Of a stretch of DNA of 55,857 nucleotides, positions 4,294 to 17,455 are shown piece after piece. The notes beneath the pieces are model-generated. The model was not told the origin of the DNA, ran no database searches, and saw only the letters and a program-made list of their open reading frames with translations. Each line of letters starts with the position of its first letter. The stretch's first letter is position 1. This DNA comes from a virus: positions 1 to 55,857 of the IMG/VR virus record IMGVR_UViG_3300029309_000050; one strand, given 5' to 3'. Both the position numbers and the translations under genes were made by a program.

Positions 4294-4547
4294 TCAACCA
4301 ATACTATATCGCCTAATTTTAAAACATAGTATAAATGTTCATTTAATTCTATACCATGCCCTGCATGCTTGTCATAATGAATTATATCATTTTTTTTAAG
4401 CATATCTGCCATAGGCCCGGATGATACTACTTTACCTTTTAAATACCTTACGTCTTTATTTTGATCTTCCGTAAGTTCTAACCCACCTATCTTTTTAGGT
4501 GGCTCTTTTATTTTTTCAACAATTACGTAATAACTAAGCGCTTCCAT
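4290..4547 (-). CDS. groES: GroES-type co-chaperonin
   Basis: 85 residues, slightly shorter than bacterial GroES (~97). N-terminal VIVEKI is the usual first strand. The segment KGKVVSSGP, the acidic/hydrophobic loop and the end YDKHAGHGIELNEHLYYVLKLGDIVLVE match the co-chaperonin barrel. The mobile loop region (EPPKKIGGLELTEDQ) is present. It caps the GroEL ring. The gene overlaps groEL by 14 bp in an unusual groEL-groES order, so the pair is translationally coupled. A second, larger GroES-like protein lies at 53233-53817. Confidence 0.85.
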   Translation of the reverse strand: MEALSYYVIVEKIKEPPKKIGGLELTEDQNKDVRYLKGKVVSSGPMADMLKKNDIIHYDKHAGHGIELNEHLYYVLKLGDIVLVE

Positions 4548-6099
4548 TTATCACTCTTACATTATTAATTACACAATCGGCTGAAAATATGGTATTCACA
4601 ACGCTAACTGCATTTTTTAATGCTGTTTTAGTTACAAGAACTGGATCTATGATTCCAGCTTCAACCATATTTATTTCTTTATTATTTACAACATCTATTC
4701 CAACGCCTGGTTTACCAGACTCATAATGTTCTAATGCTGCATTATCGAGTATTGCTGCATAAGGGGAGCATATAGCTTTTAACAATATTTCTTCACCTTC
4801 GTTTTCAGGAGCAATAAAATGTGCTGCATCTAATAATGCAACACCCCCGCCTGGAACAATCCCTTCTTGCAGTGCGGCTTTAGTTGCATATATAGCGTCT
4901 TCAACTCTGTCTTTCTTTTCTTTCATTTCAACTTTTGAGTCCGCTCCAACTTTTATCATCGCTACTTTACCGTTTAGCATAGCTAACCGTTCTTGCAGCT
5001 TCTTCTTAAAGTATGGATTTTTTTCTTCAGCAACTTTATTTTCAACTATATTTATACGTTCTTGTAATATTGTATTTTGACTAGTTATTTGTAAAACAGT
5101 GTTAGTATCATCGGTAATAGATTTTTTACATTCACCTAAAACATTTGGTTCAATTAAATCTAAATCATCGCCAAGTTCTTCATTTATAACTATAGCACCT
5201 GTTAATATAGCTAAGTCCTCAATTGTTTCTTGTTTAGTTGGGCCAAAGCCAGGTAAATCTATAATATTTACTTTTATATTACCTTTAACTTTATTTGCTA
5301 ATAAAGCTGCTTTTGGCTGCTGTTCTACATTTGCAACAATTAATAAACTTCTTTTTTGTTTTATAACAAACTCTAATACTTTTTGTATTTTACGAATATT
5401 AGATATAGGTGATGAAACTATTAATACATAAGGATTATGCAATTCAGCTTTACCTTTATCTTTATCAGTTGCAAGATAGGGTGATGTTAAGCCACAGCTT
5501 ATTCTTGTTCCTTCAACAAATACTACATGTGTTTCGTGTGTATCTGATTCTTCCATAAGAACAACACCGTCTTTACCAACTTTTGAATATGCTTCTGCTA
5601 TTATAGCACCTAGCTCTTTATCGTTATTACAGCTAATAGTACTTACATTATGTAACATTTTTTTAGTTACTTTTATAGCTTTATTATCTAAATACTTAAT
5701 TACTTTATTAGTAGCAGTAGTTATGCCTTCTTTAATAGGTCTTACGCTCTGAGCATATTTTTTTTCGTTTGCTAAATGTAATAGTGATTGAGCAAGCACA
5801 GTAGCTGTAGTAGTACCGTCGCCTGCTTCTTTCACTGTATTTCTAGCTGCTTCTTTTATTAAAGTTGCACCTATATTTTCAACCGGATCATATAAGACTA
5901 CGGATTCAGCTACCGTTACACCGTCTTTTGTAATCACCGGTTTACCTAATGCATCTTCATATATGACACATTTACCTGAAGCACCTAGGGTTGACTTCAC
6001 TGCGTTAGCAAGTTTATCAACCCCGTGCATTATCTTTTCTTTAGCTTCTGCCCCGAAAGACAGATTCTTAACTATCTCACTCGGATTATTATATTCCAT
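4534..6099 (-). CDS. groEL: Chaperonin GroEL
   Basis: 521 residues, near full length for the 60-kDa chaperonin. Nucleotide-binding motifs are visible: KDGVTVAESV (the family's ATP-site Asp, ~residue 60), EAGDGTTTATVLAQ (~92-105), VEDAIYATKAALQEGIVPGGGVAL (~400-425) and the end NAVSVVNTIFSADCVI. The C-terminus lacks the Gly-Gly-Met tail of bacterial GroEL. Phage chaperonins usually help fold the capsid or other virion proteins. Here it lies in the late arm with its own GroES downstream, which fits that role. Confidence 0.93.
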   Translation of the reverse strand: MEYNNPSEIVKNLSFGAEAKEKIMHGVDKLANAVKSTLGASGKCVIYEDALGKPVITKDGVTVAESVVLYDPVENIGATLIKEAARNTVKEAGDGTTTATVLAQSLLHLANEKKYAQSVRPIKEGITTATNKVIKYLDNKAIKVTKKMLHNVSTISCNNDKELGAIIAEAYSKVGKDGVVLMEESDTHETHVVFVEGTRISCGLTSPYLATDKDKGKAELHNPYVLIVSSPISNIRKIQKVLEFVIKQKRSLLIVANVEQQPKAALLANKVKGNIKVNIIDLPGFGPTKQETIEDLAILTGAIVINEELGDDLDLIEPNVLGECKKSITDDTNTVLQITSQNTILQERINIVENKVAEEKNPYFKKKLQERLAMLNGKVAMIKVGADSKVEMKEKKDRVEDAIYATKAALQEGIVPGGGVALLDAAHFIAPENEGEEILLKAICSPYAAILDNAALEHYESGKPGVGIDVVNNKEINMVEAGIIDPVLVTKTALKNAVSVVNTIFSADCVINNVRVINGSA

Positions 6100-8018: not shown

Positions 8019-8155
8019 TTAATAGCATGACACTAGCCTGTTACTAATTATATTAATATACCTTATGTCACATAAAAATGTTGTAAGAAATATAGAGGTT
8101 ATGGGTTGTCCATTAATATACGTGTTTAGCTTGTATAACAAAAACGCTTATTTTT

Positions 8156-8280
8156 ACCCCACCGGGGCCTTTTTTAGCCGGTTTGCCGCAAAGTTTTTGG
8201 CTTTTGCCGGCGGCCTGGCCTGATTATCCGCCGTCTGGCTGCCCGTGCTCGGCTATCCGTACCAGCCAATTACGTATAGC
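8156..8280. other. GC-rich island with inverted repeats
   Basis: By hand count, 70 of 120 bases at 8161-8280 are G/C (58%); the flanking line 8041-8100 has 12 of 60 (20%). It contains CCCC-ACC-GGGG followed by CC and six T (8157-8175, terminator-like on the plus strand), GGC-TTTT-GCC (8199-8208), and a perfect 6-bp stem CGGCGG/CCGCCG (8208-8213 with 8228-8233). No convincing coding sequence. Candidate packaging site, origin component or recent insertion. Confidence 0.6.
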
Positions 8281-8289
8281 AAAACGGAC

Positions 8290-8317
8290 TTAACACGTGG
8301 TACTTTGGATAATATAA
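8290..8317 (+). promoter_or_regulatory. Early-arm promoter-like motif, copy 1
   Basis: TTAACACG, nine bases, GGATAATATAA. First of nine copies of TNAAYACG-N9-GGATAATATAA on the plus strand. The GG lies 25 bp upstream of the ATG at 8332, which supports that start over the longer upstream extension of the frame. Confidence 0.7.
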
Positions 8318-8331
8318 GTGAATATAAAATT

Positions 8332-8478
8332 ATGAATATAAATTTAAATAGGTTGAGAGAAGAAATGAGAGTCGATATGATTCAGTCCAACCCTGAGTTA
8401 TCTCATGAAGAAATTGTCGAAGTATTAGACGAAGTGTTTAATGTTGGGAAAGATTACATTGATAATCTTACGAAGTAA
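8332..8478 (+). CDS. Small hypothetical early protein
   Basis: 48 residues: MNINLNRLREEMRVDMIQSN then PELSHEEIVEVLDEVFNVGKDYIDNLTK, predicted mostly helical and acidic. The frame is open further upstream into the GC-rich island. The ATG at 8332 is chosen because promoter-like copy 1 lies 25 bp before it and the upstream sequence is noncoding in composition. The stop codon forms the start of motif copy 2. Function unknown. Confidence 0.6.
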   Translation: MNINLNRLREEMRVDMIQSNPELSHEEIVEVLDEVFNVGKDYIDNLTK

Positions 8479-8501
8479 ATACGTTCTCTAATGGATAATA
8501 A
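8476..8501 (+). promoter_or_regulatory. Early-arm promoter-like motif, copy 2
   Basis: TAAATACG, nine bases, GGATAATAAAG (last bases diverge). The TAA is the stop codon of the preceding gene. The GG lies 34 bp upstream of the ATG at 8527. Confidence 0.65.
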
Positions 8502-8526
8502 AGTAAATAAATATAATTTAATAATA

Positions 8527-8838
8527 ATGAAAAATACTCAATTAAATAAAGCAATAGCTAAATTAAGTAAGAAAGAATTAAAAGAAATCTTTCCACCAAT
8601 AACTAGAAAGAACTTTGTAGTAAGAAAGTCTTGGCTAGGTAGAAATCAAATCATAACATTTGTAAATAATAAAAATCAAAAAGTTACTTACAACCATGAT
8701 GAAGTATTAAAAATCATGTTACCTAAACTAAGCATTATGCCATGCTGGCTTAAGAGAGGCTACTGGTCTCAATCGACTGACATGCCATCTAATACTAGAG
8801 AATGTATAATCGAAAGAGTAGACCTTCAAACTAAATGA
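8527..8838 (+). CDS. Hypothetical early protein
   Basis: 103 residues from ATG 8527 (MKNTQLNKAIAKLSKKELKE ...). An in-frame ATG at 8491 overlaps the promoter-like motif and would add 12 residues, so the inner start is preferred. Basic, with KSWLGRNQIITFVNNKNQKVTYNHDEVLKIML and a Trp/Cys-bearing end (PCWLKRGYWSQSTDM). No family recognised. It overlaps the next start by ATGA. Confidence 0.55.
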   Translation: MKNTQLNKAIAKLSKKELKEIFPPITRKNFVVRKSWLGRNQIITFVNNKNQKVTYNHDEVLKIMLPKLSIMPCWLKRGYWSQSTDMPSNTRECIIERVDLQTK

Positions 8839-8978
8839 GAAGGTTTACTCACTACGTCTTGCTCTCATGCGCATTTACCCTGGGAGCAATGGCGTTCACT
8901 GGAATAGGATATATGATATTCTTACTAGTGACTGGACAAATAGCAGATGTTCATATTGCTTGCGCAATCTGCGATTAA
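8835..8978 (+). CDS. Small membrane protein
   Basis: 47 residues: MRRFTHYVLLSCAFTLGAMA then FTGIGYMIFLLVTGQIADV and a Cys-bearing end (HIACAICD). Two hydrophobic stretches, or one long one, indicate an inner-membrane protein. The start overlaps the previous stop (ATGA), typical of this genome. A different frame (8867-9055, 62 codons) overlaps it and was judged less likely. Function unknown. Confidence 0.5.
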   Translation: MRRFTHYVLLSCAFTLGAMAFTGIGYMIFLLVTGQIADVHIACAICD

Positions 8979-9062
8979 TCTTAACTAAGAACGAGTTTGA
9001 AGCTATAGCCTGCAAAGACAGGGTTCATCTGAAAAGATATATAAGCGAGGTATAAAGTGACG

Positions 9063-9077
9063 TTAAGAGCTGAGACC
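9063..9077 (+). repeat. 15-base repeat TTAAGAGCTGAGACC, copy 1
   Basis: Exact copy also at 11916-11930. Both begin a structured noncoding stretch just after a coding block. Possibly a shared 5' element of two noncoding RNAs. Confidence 0.6.
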
Positions 9078-9098
9078 CAAAGGCAAGATATGCGGAAA

Positions 9099-9169
9099 GC
9101 ATCACTCGGCACCGGAGGGTTTCGGTGTATAGCAAATGTATAGCATTGCGTATAGCATTCGGTGGATGC
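9099..9169 (+). repeat. Nested stem containing three TATAGCA iterons
   Basis: Outer stem GCATCAC (9099-9105) with GTGGATGC (9162-9169, one bulged G). Inner hairpin GCACCG/CGGTGT (9109-9114 with 9123-9128, loop GAGGGTTT). TGTATAGCA occurs at 9126-9134 and 9137-9145, and CGTATAGCA at 9149-9157, spaced 11 and 12 bp (about one helical turn). Further copies lie at 9197-9205, 9206-9214 (TGTACAGCA) and 8273-8281. Confidence 0.6.
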
Positions 9170-9240
9170 GGTATAAAGAGAATACGGAGTTTTTAATGTA
9201 TAGCATGTACAGCAAAAATCGCGCCGGAATTCTCACCGTA

Positions 9241-9282
9241 TGACGTATTGTCATATAAAGTTATTAACGTGACGTATTGTCA
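9241..9282. repeat. Two palindromic operator-like repeats
   Basis: TGACGTATTGTCA occurs exactly at 9241-9253 and 9270-9282, 29 bp start to start. Each has TGAC/GTCA inverted arms around a 5-bp centre, as expected for sites of a dimeric DNA-binding protein. The binder is unknown; the phage's HTH protein (14719-15366) is one candidate. Confidence 0.6.
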
Positions 9283-9288
9283 GTAGGT

Positions 9289-9345
9289 AAATAGTGTGAC
9301 AAAAGCTACCTATTATTCTATATTATGTAGTAAATGTCACTATTT
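9289..9345. repeat. Cruciform-capable inverted repeat
   Basis: AAATA-GT-GTGACA (9289-9301) pairs with TGTCAC-TATTT (9335-9345), leaving a 2-base bulge. An inner CTAC/GTAG (9306-9309 with 9327-9330) is separated by 4-base sides. The loop is A/T-only. Could be an origin hairpin, an RNA structure or a regulator site. Confidence 0.55.
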
Positions 9346-9428
9346 TTAACTATACTTACTACGAGACTTAGTATAATACTATATTTCCTTTTTATACTAT
9401 TAAACAAAGTAACTACTTTTATACATAC

Positions 9429-9456
9429 TGAATACGTAAAGTAAAGGATAATATAA
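9429..9456 (+). promoter_or_regulatory. Early-arm promoter-like motif, copy 3
   Basis: TGAATACG, nine bases, GGATAATATAA, 23 bp before the ATG at 9469. This copy is fully intergenic, showing that the motif is not merely coding sequence. Confidence 0.7.
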
Positions 9457-9468
9457 TAAATTAGAAAT

Positions 9469-9759
9469 ATGAATATAAAACACTTAATAAATAAGGAAAT
9501 TGAAAACCATACTGACTTAGAGTATTGGGGAACAGAGGAAAATATAAATAATGAAAATATTATATTTGACTATGTATTAGATAATAATATAGTAAATCAA
9601 GATTGGTTTGACACTAAATTAAAATATACTAGTCCAGAGTTATTAGAGGAATTATTAAAAGTTGTAAAGTTTTTTGAAGCTCACCAACTAAGTAATGAAG
9701 AAATGAAAGATAAAGAATATATGGAAAGTTTACTTGAAAATTATAATGAAAATAAATAA
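9469..9759 (+). CDS. Hypothetical acidic early protein
   Basis: 96 residues, helical and acidic (NKEIENHTDLEYWGTEENINNENIIF ... EELLKVVKFFEAHQLSNEEMKDKEYMESLLENYNENK). No recognised domain. Preceded by promoter-like copy 3 and followed 9 bp later by another small gene, so it starts a two-gene unit. Confidence 0.6.
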   Translation: MNIKHLINKEIENHTDLEYWGTEENINNENIIFDYVLDNNIVNQDWFDTKLKYTSPELLEELLKVVKFFEAHQLSNEEMKDKEYMESLLENYNENK

Positions 9760-9768
9760 ATTCGAATA

Positions 9769-10035
9769 ATGGAAAAAAAATATATAAAATTAAGTATAGA
9801 TGGGTGGTATACCCAGGACGAAGAGTATGCAAAGAAATTTAATAACTCTTTAGTAAACAACGAAAGTATATACCATGAGATTGCAAAAAACTATATAATC
9901 TCAATGAATATAAAATACGGTGGTTTAGCTATGGTATCATTAGATGATTTCCTATGCGAATATGGCGATGATTTAAAATATGAGGATTTAAAGCTCGGTG
10001 AATCAATATTAAGATTATTTGATTTACGAACTTAA
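9769..10035 (+). CDS. Hypothetical early protein
   Basis: 88 residues (MEKKYIKLSIDGWYTQDEEYAKKF ...), acidic, mixed alpha/beta, no membrane segment. Its stop codon is part of promoter-like copy 4. No family recognised; small early genes of this kind often encode host-takeover proteins, which is only a suggestion. Confidence 0.55.
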   Translation: MEKKYIKLSIDGWYTQDEEYAKKFNNSLVNNESIYHEIAKNYIISMNIKYGGLAMVSLDDFLCEYGDDLKYEDLKLGESILRLFDLRT

Positions 10036-10059
10036 TACGAAATCTAAAGGATAATATAA
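10032..10059 (+). promoter_or_regulatory. Early-arm promoter-like motif, copy 4
   Basis: TTAATACG, nine bases, GGATAATATAA. The TAA is the stop codon of the preceding gene; GG is 31 bp before the ATG at 10080. Confidence 0.7.
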
Positions 10060-10079
10060 GTGAATTTAAAAATTAAAAT

Positions 10080-10262
10080 ATGAATTTATCTTACCACATA
10101 TACTACAATAAAGAATTTAAAATCTATGACTTAGTAATTAAAAAAGACAACAAGCCTTTTTCTAACTACCATATTCATAACAAAAAAGATTTGATTAAAT
10201 TAATTAACAATAAAAACTATGACTACGAGTCAGATAAATATAGTGCTTATGAAATTAAATAA
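10080..10262 (+). CDS. Small hypothetical early protein
   Basis: 60 residues, Tyr/Lys/Asn-rich (MNLSYHIYYNKEFKIYDLVIKK ... DLIKLINNKNYDYESDKYSAYEIK). The start follows motif copy 4 and an A/T-rich leader. The layout, a short beta part then a helix with KKDLIKLI, resembles small DNA-mimic or regulatory proteins, but no family is recognised. Confidence 0.5.
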   Translation: MNLSYHIYYNKEFKIYDLVIKKDNKPFSNYHIHNKKDLIKLINNKNYDYESDKYSAYEIK

Positions 10263-10272
10263 AGTAAATAAC

Positions 10273-10458
10273 ATGAAAGAGCTTTTAGAGTATGTAGCTA
10301 ACAAACAGAAAAAACAAACTCACGACCACTACGAAATAGTGAAAGTATATGGTCCTTGCAAAGGCATGGGTAATAGAAGATATAAAGTACCACAAAAAAG
10401 TACTTTTAGAAAAGGTAAAAGCTATGCTTATAATAAGAAATGGACGTACACGAACTAA
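10273..10458 (+). CDS. Small basic hypothetical protein
   Basis: 61 residues from ATG 10273 (MKELLEYVANKQKKQTHDHYE ...), rich in Lys/Tyr/Gly (GPCKGMGNRRYKVPQKSTFRKGK). The frame extends upstream into the preceding gene, so the first ATG after that gene's stop was chosen. The stop codon starts motif copy 5. Function unknown. Confidence 0.5.
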   Translation: MKELLEYVANKQKKQTHDHYEIVKVYGPCKGMGNRRYKVPQKSTFRKGKSYAYNKKWTYTN

Positions 10459-10483
10459 ATACGACTAGTATTGGATAATATAA
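10456..10483 (+). promoter_or_regulatory. Early-arm promoter-like motif, copy 5
   Basis: TAAATACG, nine bases, GGATAATATAA. TAA is the stop codon of the preceding gene; GG is 30 bp before the ATG at 10503. Confidence 0.7.
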
Positions 10484-10502
10484 TAAATTAAATTAAATAA
10501 TA

Positions 10503-10745
10503 ATGAGTAGATTAAAAACACTTTATGATAGACTTAATACTAATTTAAAGTCTGAATTGCAAGCTAGCGCTAGAAAATATGACACAGCTAAGAGATTAAA
10601 GTATAAACTCATGAGTAGTACATTATGGTATGATTTATCAGTTGATGATATTAGCCAGTTAATGAGTTATTCAGGACTATATACAAATGAAGTAACTGCT
10701 AGTGATGTACTATATGGCACTAGATTTATTAAACAAGATAAATAA
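10503..10745 (+). CDS. Hypothetical early protein
   Basis: 80 residues (MSRLKTLYDRLNTNLKSELQ ...), basic helical N-terminal half and LSVDDISQLMSYSGLYTNEV near the C-terminus. It ends at the inverted repeat that precedes the first tRNA-like RNA. No recognised family. Confidence 0.55.
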   Translation: MSRLKTLYDRLNTNLKSELQASARKYDTAKRLKYKLMSSTLWYDLSVDDISQLMSYSGLYTNEVTASDVLYGTRFIKQDK

Positions 10746-10786
10746 GAGGAGCGCACTAAATTGGTAAGCCGGAATCCCAGTCCTCT
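10745..10786 (+). repeat. Inverted repeat upstream of tRNA-like RNA A
   Basis: AGAGGA (10746-10751 region) pairs perfectly with TCCTCT (10781-10786), enclosing ~30 bases that contain TTGGTAAGCC. It directly abuts the tRNA-like RNA at 10787. A parallel arrangement (8-bp repeat, then tRNA-like RNA) occurs at 11956-12080. Confidence 0.5.
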
Positions 10787-10890
10787 TGCGTGTTATGGTA
10801 AATATCAAAAGCGTACACAAGGAATAAATGAGTGTATGTGCATTAAAAGTTCTGATGTAGGATAATGAGGTTCGAATCCTCAGCACGCGC
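10787..10890 (+). tRNA. tRNA-like RNA A (non-canonical, 104 nt)
   Basis: A perfect T arm, TGAGG-TTCGAAT-CCTCA (10866-10882), is followed by GCACGCG, which pairs with TGCGTGT at 10787-10793 (7 bp, two G-U). TA then TGGT-AAAT-ATCA gives a D-arm-like stem. Instead of a normal 17-base anticodon arm there is an 8-bp stem GCGTACAC/GTGTATGT with a 13-base loop, so no anticodon can be assigned. No encoded CCA. It could be a tRNA with an insertion, a decayed tRNA or a tRNA mimic. Confidence 0.5.
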
Positions 10891-10904
10891 TAAAAATTAA
10901 GAAT

Positions 10905-11132
10905 ATGAAGAAATTTAAAGATACTAAATTTAAAGAACTAGAAGCTAAAGGTTTAATCAGTGAAAAGCTTAAACAAATTGATACCTTTGAAGCTAAGTAT
11001 TCACCGTGCACCGAATCAAAAGCAATGAGAAAATGGTGTACTGATTATGAATATCGTAAAAGAGAATGGCAATTTAGAAATAGCGTTGCCGAATATGCAA
11101 AGTATAACGCACATAAAGCATTTATGAAATGA
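10905..11132 (+). CDS. Hypothetical early protein
   Basis: 75 residues, basic/helical (MKKFKDTKFKELEAKGLISEKLK ... SKAMRKWCTDYEYRKREWQFRNSVAEYAKYNAHKAF). It starts 15 bp after tRNA-like RNA A and overlaps the next gene by ATGA. Function unknown. Confidence 0.55.
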   Translation: MKKFKDTKFKELEAKGLISEKLKQIDTFEAKYSPCTESKAMRKWCTDYEYRKREWQFRNSVAEYAKYNAHKAFMK

Positions 11133-11308
11133 ATAATTTAACAGATTATATGGCAGTCGGATTAGCCGAAGGCTTTGAAAAAGGTACTGAAGACCAAGTA
11201 ATTGAAGCTTGGCAGTACCTACACGACACAGGTTTAGCTTACAAACTACAAGGTTGGTTTGGTAGGACAGCTCAACGATTAATAGAACAAGGAATTATAA
11301 ATGAATAA
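11129..11308 (+). CDS. Small conserved-looking phage protein
   Basis: 59 residues: MNNLTDYMAVGLAEGFEKGT, then EAWQYLHDTGLAYKLQGWFGRTAQRLIEQGIINE. The C-terminal phrase (LxxTGxAxxLQGxxGRTAxxLIExG) is widespread in small proteins of marine and cyanophages; function there is unknown. Overlaps of ATGA with the previous gene and TAATG with the next support translation. Confidence 0.7.
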   Translation: MNNLTDYMAVGLAEGFEKGTEDQVIEAWQYLHDTGLAYKLQGWFGRTAQRLIEQGIINE

Positions 11309-11505
11309 TGAGAAAATTTGATAGATATAAAGAAAACTTAAGGCAAGTAGGTAATGAGATATATTCTTATTCTACAAACGTCGCAACAATTGAATACCCA
11401 AATTTAATACAACACGGTTGGTGGAGTGTTACAACTCAGAAACATATCAACTATGTTGCAAAAGAATTAGGTTTAACAATTAAAAAACCATATTTAGATG
11501 AGTAA
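11308..11505 (+). CDS. Small conserved-looking phage protein
   Basis: 65 residues. The core SYSTNVATIEYPNLIQHGWWSVTTQKHINYVAKELGLT is a pattern I recognise from small unannotated phage and host proteins (THVATI....L..HGWWSVTTxKHINYVAxELG). A compact fold of unknown function. It overlaps both neighbours (TAATG before, 8 bp after). Confidence 0.65.
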   Translation: MRKFDRYKENLRQVGNEIYSYSTNVATIEYPNLIQHGWWSVTTQKHINYVAKELGLTIKKPYLDE

Positions 11506-11692
11506 AATGAAAGAACTAGAACACATTGCGGATTGCGTAGTAGATGTATTAGAAGAACATTTAGAACATAATATCGCTTGGGCGGTAGATGACACAATTG
11601 TAGATGGATTAGAGCACGACGAATTTGCCGATGCTATACATTATATCCGCAAAGCTGTAGTGCACAAACTAAATACGAAATACAATGGATAA
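11498..11692 (+). CDS. Small acidic hypothetical protein
   Basis: 64 residues (MSKMKELEHIADCVVDVLEEHLEHNIAWAVDDTIVDGLEHDEFADAIHYIRKAV ...), acidic and helical; resembles short phage proteins with an AWAVDD..V.GL phrase. A second in-frame ATG at 11507 lies after the previous stop and is an alternative start. The C-terminal codons (KLNTKYNG) overlap promoter-like copy 6, whose GGATAA contains the stop codon. Confidence 0.6.
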   Translation: MSKMKELEHIADCVVDVLEEHLEHNIAWAVDDTIVDGLEHDEFADAIHYIRKAVVHKLNTKYNG

Positions 11693-11697
11693 TATAA
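11670..11697 (+). promoter_or_regulatory. Early-arm promoter-like motif, copy 6
   Basis: TAAATACG, nine bases, GGATAATATAA. Here the whole left half lies within the 3' end of the preceding gene and is out of frame as a stop, yet the spacing is unchanged. GG is 15 bp before the ATG at 11702. Confidence 0.65.
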
Positions 11698-11701
11698 TTG
11701 T

Positions 11702-11890
11702 ATGAAATGTAAATGTCAAAATATAATTCCGCCAGGTCGAGTAGCACTAGGTTACAATATATGTGTCAAGTGTAGTACCACACAACAATACAGCTATGTA
11801 CCTATAATAGCTAACAAGCAAGTACTCGAAGTACAAATTGTGTCACCCGAAGTAAGTGCTAGCGTGCACAAGGCTTGGCGAAGAAAATAA
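11702..11890 (+). CDS. Small zinc-ribbon-like protein
   Basis: 62 residues: MKCKCQNIIPPGRVALGYNICVKCS has C3, C5, C21 and C24, a possible zinc site. The tail YSYVPIIANKQVLEVQIV ... HKAWRRK is typical of small phage proteins of this type. Likely binds nucleic acid or protein; function unknown. It ends at the start of a ~310-bp noncoding stretch. Confidence 0.6.
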   Translation: MKCKCQNIIPPGRVALGYNICVKCSTTQQYSYVPIIANKQVLEVQIVSPEVSASVHKAWRRK

Positions 11891-11915
11891 AGGTGAAAAA
11901 GAAATAGGAGGCAAT

Positions 11916-11930
11916 TTAAGAGCTGAGACC
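11916..11930 (+). repeat. 15-base repeat TTAAGAGCTGAGACC, copy 2
   Basis: Exact copy of 9063-9077. Its GACC end pairs with GGTC in the downstream hairpin here, so sequence conservation may reflect RNA structure or a protein site. Confidence 0.6.
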
Positions 11931-11955
11931 ATTTGTCACACTAACTTTTTCATAC

Positions 11956-12080
11956 AGGTGAGGTTTAAGGTTGGAAGACTAAAACGTCGTACCCACAAAT
12001 GCGTGGTCGTTGGCGTTGAAGTAAGAAAGACAGTATAAACAGAGAAATCGTACGCCATTCCAGTGCTGTCCGCCTCACCT
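11956..12080 (+). ncRNA. Structured RNA domain upstream of tRNA-like RNA B
   Basis: Closed by a perfect 8-bp stem AGGTGAGG/CCTCACCT. Inside, CCAC-AAATGC-GTGG and the surrounding AACGTC/GGCGTT form a stacked hairpin near 11985-12020. It ends 7 bp before tRNA-like RNA B. Candidate noncoding RNA or regulatory leader; no known RNA family recognised. Confidence 0.4.
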
Positions 12081-12087
12081 TTTATAT

Positions 12088-12192
12088 AGACATGATATGG
12101 TATTAAAGAGATAACACTAATGTATGCTGGAACAGTTAAGACACACGCTATCGTATAAGAACTCTTACGCAGGTTCGACTCCTGCCATGTCT
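12088..12192 (+). tRNA. tRNA-like RNA B (non-canonical, 105 nt)
   Basis: Perfect 7-bp acceptor stem AGACATG (12088-12094)/CATGTCT (12186-12192) and perfect T arm GCAGG-TTCGACT-CCTGC (12169-12185). TAAG-AACT-CTTA just before the T arm resembles a long variable arm as in Leu/Ser/Tyr tRNAs. The middle (ACACTAATG ... GCTATCG) is ~40 bases with no normal 5-bp stem and 7-base loop, so the anticodon is not assignable. No encoded CCA. Same size and layout as RNA A. Confidence 0.5.
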
Positions 12193-12206
12193 TCTAAATT
12201 AAAATT

Positions 12207-12425
12207 ATGAAATACTTATTTATACTAGATTTTACAGACGGTAAAGTTTACAGATACAATATGAAAGACATGTGCCAGCTGTTAAACCTGACTGATTCTC
12301 ATCGTGTATGGTCTTTTCCAGATGACTTTGAAGATTTTATAGTTACTGAAGGTTTTTCACTCAGTAACGTAGAATGGATGGCAACTAACAGCGGTAAACT
12401 CTATACATATATGGACACAGACTAA
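12207..12425 (+). CDS. Small hypothetical protein
   Basis: 72 residues: MKYLFILDFTDGKVYRYNMKDMCQLLN, then RVWSFPDDFEDFIVTEGFSLSNVEWMATNSG. The pattern YxFIxDxxxGKVYRY ... EDFIxxxGFSLxNVEWM looks like a conserved marine phage protein. Mixed alpha/beta, no catalytic motif. It starts 14 bp after tRNA-like RNA B; the stop is part of motif copy 7. Confidence 0.6.
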   Translation: MKYLFILDFTDGKVYRYNMKDMCQLLNLTDSHRVWSFPDDFEDFIVTEGFSLSNVEWMATNSGKLYTYMDTD

Positions 12426-12450
12426 ACACGAAGTAATCTGGATAATATAA
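12423..12450 (+). promoter_or_regulatory. Early-arm promoter-like motif, copy 7
   Basis: TAAACACG, nine bases, GGATAATATAA. TAA is the preceding stop codon. GG is 15 bp before an ATG at 12455 that opens a 7-codon micro-ORF (MKKKCNK) ending as ATGA on the start of the next gene at 12475. This is a possible leader peptide. Confidence 0.65.
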
Positions 12451-12474
12451 TTGTATGAAAAAAAAATGTAACAA

Positions 12475-12693
12475 ATGATATATAATAGTAATTTAAAAAA
12501 TAAAGCCTACGATAAAATTTACTCTAAAATACAAACAGTAAATAATGAAATTAAAGCTGATGAGTACGATATTAAAAACGGTTTAGTGACTAAATTTGTA
12601 CCTAAAGAGCTGCATATCAGTGCTTTAAACTTTAAGAAAAAAGAAAAAAAAATATATAAATACATACTTAAATTAATTAAAAATTATGGATAA
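12475..12693 (+). CDS. Small basic hypothetical protein
   Basis: 72 residues (MIYNSNLKNKAYDKIYSKIQTV ... FKKKEKKIYKYILKLIKNYG), very Lys/Tyr/Ile-rich and helical. It is preceded by a 7-codon micro-ORF whose stop overlaps this start, and overlaps the next gene by 8 bp. No family recognised. Confidence 0.5.
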   Translation: MIYNSNLKNKAYDKIYSKIQTVNNEIKADEYDIKNGLVTKFVPKELHISALNFKKKEKKIYKYILKLIKNYG

Positions 12694-13147
12694 ATTTAAC
12701 TACGATGATGTCGTTCAAGCTTTAGAGGCCGACGGCATAATGCAAGAACCTGATGCGCCTTGGCTTCTTGAATATATACTTCAAGAGCATGGAGGCGAAT
12801 TAGATACCACTAGTGATTGGGCTAGAGGTTACGAAAGACTGCTAGTATACTCTGAGTCTACTGCAGATAGCTATGATGTATATGTGTGTACAGACAACCA
12901 TAATGGACCATCAGATTTTAGTAACGACGTATACTACTATGAAGACCATGAAGCTTGGTCTGAAAGAGTTCTTGACACCTTATTTCAAGGTTGCAATGTG
13001 TGGGTTGACAGTCACATTTGGGACGATATGGAATATGATTTCAATATCGTATTAGAGGAAGCTTGGATTGACATATACGAAGGCTTGCATGCGGACAAAG
13101 TATGCGAAATGGAATCCGACGGCGGAGAATATATTGAAGAAGAATAA
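12686..13147 (+). CDS. Acidic hypothetical protein
   Basis: 153 residues, strongly acidic (EADGIMQEPDAPWLLEYILQE ... DNHNGPSDFSNDVYYYEDHEAW ... ESDGGEYIEEE) with many aromatic residues. Such composition is seen in DNA-mimic anti-defence proteins, but also in ordinary phage proteins; no family recognised. It overlaps the gene upstream and is followed 1 bp later by the next start. Confidence 0.55.
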   Translation: MDKFNYDDVVQALEADGIMQEPDAPWLLEYILQEHGGELDTTSDWARGYERLLVYSESTADSYDVYVCTDNHNGPSDFSNDVYYYEDHEAWSERVLDTLFQGCNVWVDSHIWDDMEYDFNIVLEEAWIDIYEGLHADKVCEMESDGGEYIEEE

Positions 13148-13148
13148 T

Positions 13149-13628
13149 ATGGCAACTAGAAATTTAACAATGGTAGTCGATAGATATCACTACGAAGACT
13201 TTACAGAAAGAATGATGGACATTACTCCACATTCTATGCAAGAATACAGCAGGGTTAATATGTACTTACACCATGATGGTTATCCAGAGTGGCAAGGCGT
13301 ACAATTAGCAAACTGGGTGCTTGCAAATAATAGACAAGATGGGGCAGCAATGGCGGCAAAGCTAGTGCACGATATGTATTATAGTAGTTGCTATTTATAT
13401 AATAGCCCTGACCAGATAGACCATCAATATACTTATATAGTATTTACAGATGATACTGACCCATTAATATATTGTTACGACCAATATACAGATAAAGAAG
13501 TATTTTGTTTAGAACCTAAAGATGTTATTAAAGAATATTTTGATAATATGGAATACACTAATTTTGCAGGTGGTGAAATTAGAAATGCACAGGAAAAACA
13601 AGAGTTTGATACTATAAGAACAAGCTAA
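13149..13628 (+). CDS. Hypothetical protein
   Basis: 159 residues from ATG 13149 (MATRNLTMVVDRYHYEDFTERMM ...). The frame is open 27 codons further upstream but that part overlaps the previous gene, and the ATG 1 bp after that gene's stop fits the genome's pattern. HH/DY-rich (YLHHDGYPEWQGVQLANWVL ... YNSPDQIDHQYTYIVF). The phrase MYxHxDGYPExxGxxLxxWL resembles small phage proteins that sense or mimic host components. Function unknown. Confidence 0.55.
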   Translation: MATRNLTMVVDRYHYEDFTERMMDITPHSMQEYSRVNMYLHHDGYPEWQGVQLANWVLANNRQDGAAMAAKLVHDMYYSSCYLYNSPDQIDHQYTYIVFTDDTDPLIYCYDQYTDKEVFCLEPKDVIKEYFDNMEYTNFAGGEIRNAQEKQEFDTIRTS

Positions 13629-13653
13629 ATACGTAAAAACATGGATAATATAA
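13626..13653 (+). promoter_or_regulatory. Early-arm promoter-like motif, copy 8
   Basis: TAAATACG, nine bases, GGATAATATAA. TAA is the stop of the preceding gene; GG is 13 bp before the ATG at 13656. Confidence 0.7.
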
Positions 13654-13655
13654 AC

Positions 13656-13943
13656 ATGAATGAAGAGCAATACAAAGCTTTATATAATAAAATTAAAATA
13701 GATTTATATAATGAATTTATTAATCCTGAAACAGCTACTTATGGACTTGATGTCATACGACAACAGGAAGTTAAGGATAATAAACCTGATATTGCATATT
13801 TTAATGTCCCCCTTGAACAGCAAATTATATGGGACGAAATAAAACAGCTTGAAGTAGTAATGAAAAAATACGAGGATGACGAAGAATACGAAAAAGCTGG
13901 ATTCATAAAAAAAAGAATTGAAAATCTTAAAAAACAATTATGA
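13656..13943 (+). CDS. Hypothetical protein with UVR-like C-terminus
   Basis: 95 residues from ATG 13656; an in-frame ATG at 13641 lies inside the promoter-like motif and is disfavoured. The C-terminal ~35 residues (VVMKKYEDDEEYEKAGFIKKRIENLKKQL) match the UVR helical hairpin that mediates UvrB-UvrC contacts, here as a protein-protein interaction module. Middle part unrecognised. It overlaps the next gene by 4 bp. Confidence 0.55.
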   Translation: MNEEQYKALYNKIKIDLYNEFINPETATYGLDVIRQQEVKDNKPDIAYFNVPLEQQIIWDEIKQLEVVMKKYEDDEEYEKAGFIKKRIENLKKQL

Positions 13944-14455
13944 ATATATTTTATTTACACGAAGACCCACGCTTGGCGGCTAGTTATGTATACGATAAGC
14001 ATAAAGTAAAAATGATTTTAGAATCAGCTCAAATGCTTTGCACTGCACATAGATATTATGGGAATGAAAATGTCCCCTATAAGACTGCACATTTAAACCA
14101 TCCGTCAAGTATTTGGGTTAGAGAAAATACACATCATTACTATTGGTTATACGAGCACATGCTAGCTTTAGGTAATGAATATACTAAACGATATGGCAAA
14201 AGGCATTTAACAATTACTAAATGTGCTGAGCCATTAATGAGGCACCCTGAGGGTATGCCAACTATAGAATATAAACAACCGCCTCAATGTATGCCAGACG
14301 AGTTCAAACGGTCTAATGCTATACATGGTTATTGGCGATATTATATTATTGATAAACGTAAAATTTGTAATAAAAATGAAATACCATATACTTTTAAAAC
14401 AGTTCCGACAGATGTTATGGATATGTACTATAGTGGTGTTTGTAGCATTAACTAG
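13940..14455 (+). CDS. Pyrimidine-dimer glycosylase-like protein
   Basis: 171 residues. N-terminus MNIFYLHEDPRLAASYVYDKHKVKMILESAQML, then AHLNHPSSIWVRENTHHYYWLYEHMLALGNEYTKRYGK. The pattern of HPxxxWxR and YxWLYxH, with a helical Glu/Lys-rich start, is shared with phage proteins annotated as pyrimidine dimer DNA glycosylase-type (Pyr_excise-like). That family repairs UV lesions by base excision in T4, but these marine versions have not been shown to. Assignment from memory of family patterns. Confidence 0.55.
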   Translation: MNIFYLHEDPRLAASYVYDKHKVKMILESAQMLCTAHRYYGNENVPYKTAHLNHPSSIWVRENTHHYYWLYEHMLALGNEYTKRYGKRHLTITKCAEPLMRHPEGMPTIEYKQPPQCMPDEFKRSNAIHGYWRYYIIDKRKICNKNEIPYTFKTVPTDVMDMYYSGVCSIN

Positions 14456-14591
14456 CTCCATAGCTACTATGATATGGTGCATTGGGCTACCAGCAGACGA
14501 ACATATACAGATAACAAACCGATACCTTAACTGGCCGGAAAAAGAGTGCTATTCAGCAACAGATTTAGAAATGATAATAGAAGGACCATAA
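14412..14591 (+). CDS. Small N-anchored membrane protein
   Basis: 59 residues from ATG 14412: MLWICTIVVFVALTSSIATM is a clear membrane anchor, followed by a short soluble part (IGLPADEHIQITNRYLNWPE ... DLEMIIEGP). It overlaps the previous gene by 44 bp and the next by TAATG. Upstream extension to 14316 lies fully inside the previous gene and was not used. Function unknown. Confidence 0.5.
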   Translation: MLWICTIVVFVALTSSIATMIWCIGLPADEHIQITNRYLNWPEKECYSATDLEMIIEGP

Positions 14592-14701
14592 TGAGTAAAC
14601 AAAAAAAACATATTCAACATCAAATAAAGGTAAACCTTTTTGGTTTGAAAGATAAAATAAAACAGCTCAGAAAGCGAAGAGCGACAAGAGCTAATAAATA
14701 A
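14591..14701 (+). CDS. Tiny basic protein
   Basis: 36 residues: MSKQKKHIQHQIKVNLFGLK then DKIKQLRKRRATRANK. The start overlaps the previous stop (TAATG). Basic, helical; may bind nucleic acid. Function unknown. Confidence 0.45.
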   Translation: MSKQKKHIQHQIKVNLFGLKDKIKQLRKRRATRANK

Positions 14702-14718
14702 TATTTAGTAATAAGCTA

Positions 14719-15366
14719 ATGTCACAGGAAAGAAATATGAAGTGGCTTAATAATAATAGGGTTATATATAGAAGAAATCCCATTACGGATGTGCCAACCG
14801 AAAGTACTGATCTATATGATTATTACGCAGAAGGTACGTTTGAATGTTATAGTTTATTTAGAAGTAAAGCAAAAATAACAACATACAAATCTTTAAAATG
14901 GCACTTGCTAGTTATACATTATTTAAATTATGATGGCAATCCGCATCCGTATCAGTGGTTTAGCAAAGTAGCTAGGTTTATTGCTGATAAAGAAAATGGA
15001 TTTGTAACATTTTATATTAAATGGAAAATACTAGAACAAATGATATTAGATGTGATACTACAAGGAGATACGCCACCTCGTAATAGAATACGTAAGGTTA
15101 TATTTAAAGAAAAAGCAAGATTATTAACTTTAAGCGAAAAGCTAAGTATAGTTGGTAAATTAATAGGAAAAAGTAAAAGAGTAACTCAAGAAGATATTTA
15201 TGAGTGTATGATTGATTTAAATAGTAATAATAAAAAAATTACTATATCTAAGTTAGCAGACATGTTGAAATGCACAACAAGAACTATACATAGAAATATG
15301 GGAAACCAATTAAAAGCAGAAAAAGAATATTTAAATAAGGAATATGAAAAAATACAATATAGCTAA
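14719..15366 (+). CDS. Helix-turn-helix DNA-binding protein
   Basis: 215 residues. The C-terminal region, about residues 172-196 (KKITISKLADMLKCTTRTIHRNM), is a clear helix-turn-helix: an I-S-K-L-A-x-x-L turn then CTTRTIHRN as recognition helix. The N-terminal half (YRRNPITDVPTESTDLYDYY ... WHLLVIHYLNYDGNPHP) is unrecognised. It overlaps the sigma-like gene by 23 bp, so the two are translationally coupled. This suggests a joint role in switching gene expression. Replication-initiator function is an alternative. Confidence 0.65.
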   Translation: MSQERNMKWLNNNRVIYRRNPITDVPTESTDLYDYYAEGTFECYSLFRSKAKITTYKSLKWHLLVIHYLNYDGNPHPYQWFSKVARFIADKENGFVTFYIKWKILEQMILDVILQGDTPPRNRIRKVIFKEKARLLTLSEKLSIVGKLIGKSKRVTQEDIYECMIDLNSNNKKITISKLADMLKCTTRTIHRNMGNQLKAEKEYLNKEYEKIQYS

Positions 15367-16108
15367 TTATATTAGATATAAGAAAGAAATTGAGGAAGTT
15401 TTAAAAAGAACTAGAAAACCTGAAAACGGTGATTACACTATATTAACAGATGAAGAAATAAAAATTAATTTTCTTCCTTTAGTAATAACTTTAGCACATA
15501 GGCAATCAACATCAGACCAAGCATCCGGTGTATTAAGTATACTAGACTTGTTTCAAGAAGGTAATGCTGGATTATGTGCTGCAGTTAATAAATTAGATAG
15601 AGCTGTTTTAAGCGAGTCTGAGGACCAAGAAAAAACTTTAAAATCATTTCTATCAAAAAGAATTAAAGGCGCGATACGAAGAGCTGTAGATATTAATAGA
15701 GCTGACGTACGCATACCTGAACATAAATTAAATGAGATTAGGCGCAATCCAAAAGATGAAAAAATGGTAGCAATGTTTTTTAATAGCGTTTTTGCTAGCA
15801 TTGATGATAATCCTAATCAAGATGAAAATATGGCTTATCAAGTTGTAGATAAGTCAGAACCATATAATATTGCTTTATTAAATGCTTATTTATTACAATT
15901 AATGAAAAAACATTTAACAATGCAACAATATGAAGTCCTTAGGTTAAGCTTTGGGCTAGACTGTGATAAGCACTCTGCTAATGATATAGCGGAAAAATTA
16001 AATATAAATGTTAATACTGCTCATGTACGTATCTCACAAATAAAAAGAGATGCCATACAGGTATTAATAGATAATGTAGATAGTTCGCAAGTGCTTGATT
16101 ACCTGTAA
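15344..16108 (+). CDS. Sigma-70 family-like sigma factor
   Basis: 254 residues. Region 2-like: FLPLVITLAHRQ ... LSILDLFQEGNAGLCAAVNKLD (~43-85), matching the core-binding helix consensus (DLxQEGxxGLxxAVxKFD). Then FLSKRIKGAIRRAVDINR (~102-118). Region 4-like: LTMQQYEVLRLSFGLDCDK with an HTH, SANDIAEKLNINVNTAHVRISQIKRDAI (~211-238). It would bind host RNA polymerase core and redirect it to phage promoters; the nine TNAAYACG-N9-GGATAAT motifs are candidate targets. A hairpin follows the stop. Confidence 0.8.
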   Translation: MKKYNIANYIRYKKEIEEVLKRTRKPENGDYTILTDEEIKINFLPLVITLAHRQSTSDQASGVLSILDLFQEGNAGLCAAVNKLDRAVLSESEDQEKTLKSFLSKRIKGAIRRAVDINRADVRIPEHKLNEIRRNPKDEKMVAMFFNSVFASIDDNPNQDENMAYQVVDKSEPYNIALLNAYLLQLMKKHLTMQQYEVLRLSFGLDCDKHSANDIAEKLNINVNTAHVRISQIKRDAIQVLIDNVDSSQVLDYL

Positions 16109-16111
16109 GTT

Positions 16112-16128
16112 ACGGTATAAAATACCGT
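16112..16128 (+). terminator. Hairpin after the sigma-factor gene
   Basis: ACGGTAT-AAA-ATACCGT, a perfect 7-bp stem with a 3-base loop, followed by TTTAAGTTTAATT. It lies 3 bp after the sigma-factor stop and 34 bp before the ERF gene. Terminator-like, though the T tract is interrupted; it could instead be a palindromic operator. Confidence 0.5.
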
Positions 16129-16162
16129 TTAAGTTTAATTAAAATTATGTAATTATATTATT

Positions 16163-16705
16163 ATGACCATAAACCAAAAGTTAGCAACCATTCAAACAAA
16201 ATTTAAATCGAAGAAGAGTAGATTTAATTCATTCGGCAAATATTACTTTCGCAGTGCCGAAGACATTCTCGAAGCAATTAAACCTTATCTATTAGAGATT
16301 GGAGTTGCAGTAACAATTAATGAAAAATTAATTGCCACTGATCCTATGCCTATAATTAAAACAACTGCAAAGTTGATTGATGAAAAAGGCATGGAAGTAT
16401 CTGCTGTTGCAATAGTAGGTGTAGACCTAAATCAAAAAGGTATGCAAACACCGCAGCAGTTTGGTAGTGCGTCGAGTTATGCAAAAAAATATGCGTTAGG
16501 AAATCTATTATTAATAGATGATACACAAGATAGCGACGCTACAAATAATCATGGCAAAGCGCCTGTAAGTAAAGTTATGACAAAACAAAAACTTGCTGAC
16601 GTACAAAAAGCAATTGATTATATAAAAGCAGGTGGAAAAATAGAAGCTATCAAAGCTAAATATGATTTAACTTCTGCACAAGAAAATAAATTATTACAAG
16701 CTTAA
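16163..16705 (+). CDS. erf: ERF-family single-strand annealing protein
   Basis: 180 residues. The N-terminal KLATIQTKFKSKKSRFNSFGKYYFRSAEDILEAIKPYL and the core GSASSYAKKYALGNLLLIDDTQDSDA match the ERF recombinase consensus (Y-R-x-A-x-D-I ... GSAxTYxxRYALxxLLxIxxxxDxD). It anneals complementary single strands in recombination-dependent replication. The next gene is a RecB-type nuclease, giving an exonuclease/annealing pair as in Red- or RecET-like systems. The C-terminal part (KQKLADVQKAIDYIKAGGKIEAI) is a short helical domain. Confidence 0.85.
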   Translation: MTINQKLATIQTKFKSKKSRFNSFGKYYFRSAEDILEAIKPYLLEIGVAVTINEKLIATDPMPIIKTTAKLIDEKGMEVSAVAIVGVDLNQKGMQTPQQFGSASSYAKKYALGNLLLIDDTQDSDATNNHGKAPVSKVMTKQKLADVQKAIDYIKAGGKIEAIKAKYDLTSAQENKLLQA

Positions 16706-16726
16706 TACGAATCAATTCGGATAATG
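16702..16726 (+). promoter_or_regulatory. Early-arm promoter-like motif, copy 9
   Basis: TTAATACG, nine bases, GGATAATG. TAA is the ERF stop codon, and the ATG of the nuclease gene lies only 5 bp after GG, so the right half runs into the start codon. If GG is +1, the mRNA would be almost leaderless. If GATAAT is a -10 box, the start would fall inside the gene. Confidence 0.6.
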
Positions 16727-17455
16727 AAAAAAGAAAAGGTTATTGAAAAGCTTAGAAACGATGAAGACTATTACGGAGATTTTGGTAAACAATATTTAAG
16801 TAATAGCGACATTAAAACTTTGCTTACTAACCCTTTAGCGCTTGGAGAACAATCTAAGCCTAGCCCAGCGTTTCTTGTTGGCGGATATTTTCACACCGCT
16901 ATACTTGAACCGGATAAGTTGAAGAAATACCGAGTAATACCTTCGTCAACTAGAAACACTAAGGCTTATAAAGAAATGTCTGGCGGCGAGCTATGTTTAT
17001 TACAGCATGAAGTTGACCAGATTGAATTGATGACTAATAAATTATTAAAGAACAATATATGTCGCGAGCTAATTCGTGGTATTGATGTTGAGTATGAAAA
17101 GCCGGGTATTGCAGAGCTTGAAGGAACAATGTGGAAAGGTAAAGCTGATATAGTAAATCACGATGATAAATTTGTGATTGACTTGAAGACTACTTCAGAT
17201 ATTAATTCTTTCAAGCGGTCTGCATACCGTTGGAATTACGATTCACAAGCATATATTTATAGTAAATTATTTGGTTATGAATTTATATTTATTGCTATTG
17301 ATAAAAATACACATCAAATAGCAGTTATAGATTGTTCATCTGATTTTTATGAATCAGGCAAAGACAAAGTAAAGAGAGCGGTAGAAGCTTACGATTTATT
17401 CTACAAAACAGAAGGCTTTGAACCTTCACAATATTTTATTAATTTAACACTTTAA
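16724..17455 (+). CDS. PD-(D/E)XK exonuclease (RecE/RecB-like)
   Basis: 243 residues. Motifs in order: GGYFHTAILEP with H57, WKGKADIV with D142, VIDLKTT with D153-x-K155, then YDSQAYIYSKLFG with Q175 and Y179. These form the lambda-exonuclease/RecB-type nuclease core used to resect double-strand ends. It directly follows ERF, supporting an exonuclease plus annealase module for recombination. The length is short for RecE but normal for phage putative exodeoxyribonuclease VIII-like proteins. Confidence 0.85.
   Translation: MKKEKVIEKLRNDEDYYGDFGKQYLSNSDIKTLLTNPLALGEQSKPSPAFLVGGYFHTAILEPDKLKKYRVIPSSTRNTKAYKEMSGGELCLLQHEVDQIELMTNKLLKNNICRELIRGIDVEYEKPGIAELEGTMWKGKADIVNHDDKFVIDLKTTSDINSFKRSAYRWNYDSQAYIYSKLFGYEFIFIAIDKNTHQIAVIDCSSDFYESGKDKVKRAVEAYDLFYKTEGFEPSQYFINLTL

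Follow-up and report, generated by a model that had tools for sequence, protein, structure and literature searches.

A nine-copy, two-block promoter-like element in the rightward arm of an uncultured podovirus, and the phage sigma factor proposed to read it

What reads a short, rigidly spaced sequence that recurs nine times along one arm of a viral genome? The window considered here is the whole stretch analysed, positions 1 to 55,857 of IMG/VR virus record IMGVR_UViG_3300029309_000050. Its rightward arm carries an element that an earlier note, made from the letters alone, had described as TNAAYACG-N9-GG and taken for a phage-specific early/middle promoter family. Nine plus-strand sites had been claimed, with ACG and GG always separated by exactly 9 bases, and every coordinate and spacing holds. 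When both strands were scanned, ACG-N9-GGATAAT occurred nine times on the plus strand and not at all on the minus strand of the window, against a mean of 0.05 in 100 dinucleotide shuffles, none of which attained nine; gap lengths of 6–12 between ACG and GG yielded zero extra sites. A 42-column matrix made from all copies recovered the same nine sites at 28–44 bits, with no other match of at least 8 bits on either strand of the window. The nine copies are the complete set in the window, and the both-strand search places all of them at gene starts of the rightward arm.

The extent and geometry of the element were defined in relatives, fetched from viral collections by a motif scan (at least 119 stretches) and by a separate scan with a sigma protein in which the motif was not used (73 loci). 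The consensus of 482 distinct copies in related viral contigs is tTACaaaCTAAAYACGA-N7-tGGATAATATAA-n-T-R, and the corresponding logo displays two conserved blocks, a free 7-base spacer, and a pyrimidine-purine step (Y-R) at the expected start, 7 nt past GATAAT. The core given in the earlier note was therefore right but too short, since conservation continues on both sides of it (tTACaaaC before TAAAYACG, and T-R after ATATAA-n). At the purine following the T at the element's end, 48% of the copies have A and the other 52% have G; C and T never occur. This invariant purine is likely the +1 position, which would place GATAAT at −12 to −7 and the 17-nt upstream block at −38 to −22. The start, previously expected at or just after GG, is thus predicted to lie further downstream, at the pyrimidine-preceded purine 13 nt past the first G, making GATAAT the −10 hexamer. 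In 107 of 630 copies (about one in six) the sequence around the purine reads TATG or CATG, so that the purine is the A of the ATG (a leaderless start), and Shine-Dalgarno-like words are scarce (10/630). The earlier note had named numerous copies within genes or on the leftward side as a sign against promoters, and this is not what we see: just 2.7% of the 630 copies in related contigs lie inside an open reading frame (ORF) of at least 60 amino acids (aa), compared with 49% of positions drawn at random from those contigs. Likewise, an ATG-initiated ORF begins within 60 nt of the predicted start in 56% of the copies (10% at random), and the stop codon of the preceding ORF falls within the element in 31% (6% at random).

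The nine copies in the window are as follows; each row spans −38 to the predicted +1, and bit scores are from the 42-column matrix.

Promoter copy 1: 8282–8320, plus strand; 28.6 bits; predicted +1 at 8320.
Promoter copy 2 (GGATAATAAAG variant): 8468–8506, plus strand; 30.5 bits; predicted +1 at 8506; ATG at 8527.
Promoter copy 3: 9421–9459, plus strand; 29.9 bits; predicted +1 at 9459; ATG at 9469.
Promoter copy 4: 10024–10062, plus strand; 41.8 bits; predicted +1 at 10062; ATG at 10080.
Promoter copy 5: 10448–10486, plus strand; 38.9 bits; predicted +1 at 10486; ATG at 10503.
Promoter copy 6, the best copy: 11662–11700, plus strand; 44.4 bits; predicted +1 at 11700; ATG at 11702, nearly leaderless.
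Promoter copy 7: 12415–12453, plus strand; 41.0 bits; predicted +1 at 12453; 72-aa ORF from 12475.
Promoter copy 8: 13618–13656, plus strand; 34.2 bits; predicted +1 at 13656, where an ATG begins (leaderless); no later copy precedes the helix-turn-helix (HTH) and sigma genes.
Promoter copy 9 (GGATAATGAAA variant), between the erf and exonuclease genes: 16694–16732, plus strand; 33.7 bits.

In six copies (those whose core begins at 8476, 10032, 10456, 12423, 13626, and 16702) the TAA is indeed the stop codon of the previous gene, and copies 2 and 9 diverge after GGATAAT as had been reported. The distance from GG to an ATG, given before as 5–34 bp, measures 25, 34, 23, 31, 30, 15, 15, 13, and 5 bp for copies 1 to 9, but two of these ATGs had to be corrected. 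The ATG 15 bp from copy 7 opens merely 7 codons, and the 72-aa ORF begins 35 bp away; the true start at copy 8 is probably the ATG at 13656, coincident with the predicted +1, rather than the one at 13641 within the element. A copy at the place of copy 9 is also present in the close relatives L209, L211, L214, L218, L220, and L222.

The element is tightly coupled to a sigma gene. Across the 73 loci fetched with the sigma protein, a gap of 9 gives 195 forward matches, whereas every other gap from 4 to 14 gives just 1–9 and the opposite strand 9; an unbiased dyad search of these loci ranks TACG-N9-GGAT first, and at least two copies are present in 46 of the 50 loci having at least 4 kb of upstream DNA. 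Conversely, among the matches listed, 45 long records were retrieved with the motif as the sole criterion, and 36 of these encode sigma. In the remaining nine, the copies point towards a contig end no more than about 4.5 kb away, so that the sigma gene would be cut off. The same element-plus-sigma pair recurs in dozens of uncultured relatives. MW202828, elemoA, and Cellulophaga phi13:2, terminase relatives in which no sigma homologue was found, contain no element match of at least 8 bits, and the exact element occurs in none of 295 Bacteroidota genomes of the class to which a sigma-bearing Saprospiraceae metagenome-assembled genome (MAG) belongs. Fragments found by their terminase mostly lack the early arm and hence cannot serve as a test of the element's presence or absence.

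The proposed recogniser and its neighbor are encoded in the same arm as the promoters:

Phage sigma-70-family factor, 254 aa, proposed recogniser: 15344–16108, plus strand; phrog_351, E = 3e-16.
HTH protein with a C-terminal HTH_11-like region: 14719–15366, plus strand; 20 of 26 members match Pfam HTH_11; the gene's 3′ end overlaps the sigma gene's start.

Among the homologues of this phage sigma family, Pfam Sigma70_r2 is detected in 29 of 31 and region 4 in 27 of 31, and the family profile matches bacterial sigma factors in the PDB at E = 4e-10, with FliA among the matches. The predicted fold (mean pLDDT 75) matches sigma70 with a probability of 1.00; the TM-scores are low, at or below 0.3 for most matches, which may reflect how the two sigma domains are placed relative to each other. 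By profile and predicted fold, then, the family is sigma-70-type with regions 2 and 4. No close homologue was found in 50,697 phage records, and a scan of 84,980 genomes returned five sigma matches, every one in MAG contigs.

Both the element and its sigma factor vary among lineages. Individual genomes carry their own versions across their copies: in L214, six of the seven read TTGATA, in L265 all seven have AGATAAT, and TATAAA replaces ACAAA in most copies of L261. Copies within one locus resemble each other more than expected in the core (z = −16.6) and far less so in the spacer (z = −2.5); since the spacer is hardly alike within a locus while the core is, recent copying is not the main reason for the likeness. 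The base at −13 varies within genomes and so cannot be assigned to sigma. The most distant sigma with sufficient flanking DNA, 49% identical, comes from the Saprospiraceae MAG contig (L320), where six copies read GCAGAT-N4-AACG-N10-TATAATAA, with spacing that is the same base for base and a sequence that is different.

The HTH gene adjoins the sigma gene in 71 of 72 loci, and its product is a conserved partner and possibly a regulator of the operon. A second conserved element, AGTAAnnGGCTAATGTCACA, is present at most sigma loci, overlapping the HTH start codon; in the window it lies at 14681–14726 on the plus strand and at 8028–8072. A facing TGTGACAATAGG arm completes an inverted repeat that has a TATAAT-like core at its center, and the same element stands between the two arms of the genome. 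In relatives, the region upstream of the HTH gene reads TGTGACAATAGG ... TATAAT-like ... GGCTAATGTCACA, an inverted repeat that extends across the HTH start codon. The HTH protein likely uses the inverted-repeat element as its operator.

Computation shows that the element exists with a fixed geometry, that it is placed at gene starts and coupled to the sigma gene, and that the sigma family has the expected fold; sigma binding to the element, the start site, and the timing of transcription we infer. We put at roughly 0.8 the probability that the element is a promoter for the host RNA polymerase core carrying the phage sigma factor encoded at 15344–16108. The class would be that of delayed-early or middle promoters, and the comparative evidence supports the phage-specific early/middle family that the earlier note had proposed. 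In this scheme, sigma region 2 would bind GATAAT (−12 to −7) as the −10 box, and region 4, possibly along with a second protein, would bind tTACaaaCTAAAYACGA (−38 to −22) as an extended −35 block. Initiation would fall on the invariant purine, 7 nt past GATAAT, leaving about one copy in six leaderless and the rest with a short leader devoid of a Shine-Dalgarno sequence. The host polymerase would first transcribe the HTH and sigma genes; the first sigma would have to come from another promoter, for which the region just upstream of the HTH gene, with its TGTGACAATAGG ... GGCTAATGTCACA repeat, is a candidate. Sigma would then activate the eight or nine promoters of the rightward arm and, because one of them, copy 8, stands ahead of the HTH-sigma pair, it may raise its own level by feedback.

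Several observations weigh against this assignment. The conserved block runs to −22, which exceeds the usual region 4 contact, and the window's own sigma protein falls under Pfam's curated cut-offs, so the case for it rests on its family. Because sigma and HTH are co-inherited, co-occurrence alone cannot say which of the two reads the upstream block. Motif distance and sigma distance are correlated (Mantel r = 0.37, p = 0.001), but shared ancestry confounds the comparison, and a residue-base covariation analysis of sigma region 2.4 found no residue tracking the base at −12. L264, a sigma locus with long upstream DNA, carries a variant, TTAAATAAT-N10-GATAATA, in three copies. At copy 9 the exonuclease ATG (16724) falls within the −10 box, 8 nt upstream of the predicted start.

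Could the host's primary sigma factor (sigmaA) instead read the elements as early promoters with no phage factor, while the phage sigma serves other, late promoters? The copies do precede small, early-type genes and the sigma gene itself, and promoters ahead of a regulator are often host-read. However, the flavobacterial sigmaA box (TAnnTTTG at −12 to −5; PMC9723704) is found in just 12 of 630 copies anywhere in 45 nt, scattered and never at −12 to −5, which makes host sigmaA an unlikely reader. In addition, the exact element is absent from the 295 genomes of the class, the terminase relatives without sigma are also without the element, and the element varies by phage lineage, for which a constant host factor would not account. 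A search for a late-arm counterpart found no enriched dyad in the window's leftward arm, and no recurrent motif was found ahead of the leftward late genes for the phage sigma to serve. We regard this explanation as improbable, and to about the same degree the suggestion that another phage protein, such as the HTH protein, binds the upstream block and, together with host or phage sigma, works an activator-dependent promoter. An activator would suit a block that extends to −22, beyond the usual −35 element, as well as an HTH protein linked as tightly as sigma, but the inverted repeat TGTGACAATAGG...GGCTAATGTCACA at the HTH gene start and in the inter-arm region is a more natural HTH site, and the rigid spacing of both blocks suits a single recogniser.

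Two further explanations seem to us far less probable still. The T7 promoter consensus contains AATACGA, and the resemblance of AAATACGA to it, a seven-base identity, would fit promoters of a phage RNA polymerase, either single-subunit (T7-like) or multi-subunit. Yet a T7-like polymerase (PF00940) was found neither in 24 motif-bearing records nor in the window (phage T7 control, 1e-110), an Rpb1-type subunit (PF00623) was found in none of 25 records, with controls 14/14 positive and the crAss-type giant polymerase not separately modelled, and the window's 2,131-aa ORF matches no polymerase in Pfam or PDB. Hardly more credible is a function outside transcription initiation, as a translation or RNA-processing signal or as a recombination or replication repeat between genes, even though the element overlaps stop codons and precedes ATGs: the distance to the ATG varies widely (index 21 to 88), unlike that of a ribosome signal, the spacers differ freely, the consensus contains no hairpin, and the two-block spacing, −10 box, and Y-R start suit a promoter.

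Other ways of parsing these sequences were tried and set aside. Reading the element as sigma-70 hexamers (TNAAYA-17-TATAAT) fails on columns 22–25, which are far less conserved than GGATAATA, and places the start purine too close; a generic promoter scan of the rightward arm gave little excess (69 sites versus 55±7). A host sigmaA box TAnnTTTG with TTG 17–22 nt upstream produced scattered matches, none at the copies. Strong dyads in the terminase loci (TTGC-N8-GATC and others) resemble one conserved gene start.

The principle of a phage sigma factor that redirects host polymerase is known. The sigma-70 homologue SaPh711_gp47 of phage 7-11 directs host RNA polymerase to about eight phage promoters of consensus GTAAtg-16-aCTA, with starts 6–9 bp from the element (PMC8948821). 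As predicted here, that system combines a phage sigma, the host core, and several promoters sharing one two-block consensus; its consensus is unrelated, however, its promoters serve late genes whereas those of the window lie in a small-gene and recombination arm, and its host group is Enterobacteria rather than Bacteroidota. For phiEco32, the same paper describes a sigma, gp36, acting at middle and late promoters with a single-block tAATGTAtA and no −35 block (PMC8948821). The two systems would share a phage sigma with promoters before phage genes and differ in the long upstream block, which is strongly conserved in the window's family. With flavobacterial sigmaA promoters the element likely shares the core polymerase, and leaderless and Shine-Dalgarno-free mRNAs occur in this host group (5.5% of F. 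psychrophilum mRNAs are leaderless; PMC9723704), but the window's copies carry GATAATAT in place of TAnnTTTG. The resemblance to sigma-28 promoters lies in the words CTAAA and GATAA and in a small sigma with regions 2 and 4. The sigma-28/sigma-D consensus is CTAAA...CCGATAT; the word gap in the present element is about four bases shorter, and its conserved block continues into the spacer. Assignment to the sigma-28 (FliA) class was rejected, as it needs TAAA about 15 bp upstream of GCCGATAA, whereas the logo has 11 bp to the −10 octamer. Compared with phiEco32 and 7-11, the consensus, genome position, and host group differ, and the upstream block is unusual. In open-licence papers on flavobacterial phage promoters and sigma factors, we found no description of the element or of the sigma-promoter pair.

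The region between the arms contains further features. At 8138–8096 on the minus strand is a decayed leftward promoter copy, TATACAAGCTAAACACG-N9-GGACAAC, with an intact upstream block (18.6 bits) and a broken −10 box. A G+C-rich stretch at 8150–8280, with CCCCACCGGGG followed by a T run, separates the inter-arm operator from copy 1 in a phage that is otherwise 32% G+C. At 8045–7988 on the minus strand lies a candidate leftward late promoter, GTGATAATATTTATATG, in which the distance from −10 to ATG is as in the leaderless rightward copies and an operator element at −57 to −40 replaces the upstream block. It is conceivable, although we consider it doubtful, that one sigma serves promoters of two designs: nine in the rightward arm that are bipartite, and a single leftward late promoter (about 8045–7988, minus strand) with a GATWAT-like −10, a leaderless ATG, and an inverted-repeat operator, AGTAACAGGCTAnTGTCAC, at −57 to −40 that the HTH protein would read. 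If true, the two-gene HTH-sigma operon would be a complete early-to-late switch in which the HTH protein chooses the arm.

The terminase, portal, and several virion proteins relate the phage to podoviruses of Flavobacteriia (Flavobacterium phage elemo, Cellulophaga phi13:2, phi18:3, and phi38:1, and Tenacibaculum Gundel), the best terminase match being the unassigned MW202828 (62%). The rightward arm (about 8.3–25.6 kb) encodes small ORFs, HTH, sigma, Erf, exonuclease, primase-helicase, thymidylate synthase, MazG, Holliday junction resolvase, and ribonucleotide reductase; the leftward arms hold the virion genes and GroEL, and the 55.9 kb record is probably incomplete in the virion arm. GroEL (4534–6099, minus strand, 521 aa; phrog_5725, E = 1e-135) is also present in MW202828 and elemo relatives. 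The virion protein at 37959–39251 (minus strand) contains the C-terminal domain of the crAss-like phage muzzle protein (Pfam PF25729, E = 2e-12), which would provide a structural link between these podoviruses and Crassvirales. The 2,131-aa virion-arm protein at 28855–35250 (minus strand) has no Pfam or PDB match.

A transfer-messenger RNA (tmRNA)-like RNA is located at 12088–12196 on the plus strand, with full-span matches in the window and in 13 of 33 other motif-bearing records; one further record has the T-arm only, and L249 carries two in tandem (5185–5267 and 5268–5366). These RNAs keep the acceptor stem, the T-arm GGTTCGAYTCC, and the 5′ GUGAU...GGU, and are missing most of the middle, including the tag-reading part. 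They measure about 70–180 nt against 374 model positions, and their full-span E-values of 6e-17 to 4e-6 are all under the gathering score; ARAGORN made no calls at these places. They could be phage-made, tag-less tmRNA mimics or decoys.

The phage group is common in marine viral metagenomes and, within the collections searched, uncultured. The motif may serve as a marker of the group in such data, and it alone would predict transcription starts and operons in genomes whose genes mostly have no assigned function. The sigma-promoter pair, with its natural variants, offers material for studying the evolution of promoter recognition and a possible orthogonal promoter/sigma set for Bacteroidota.

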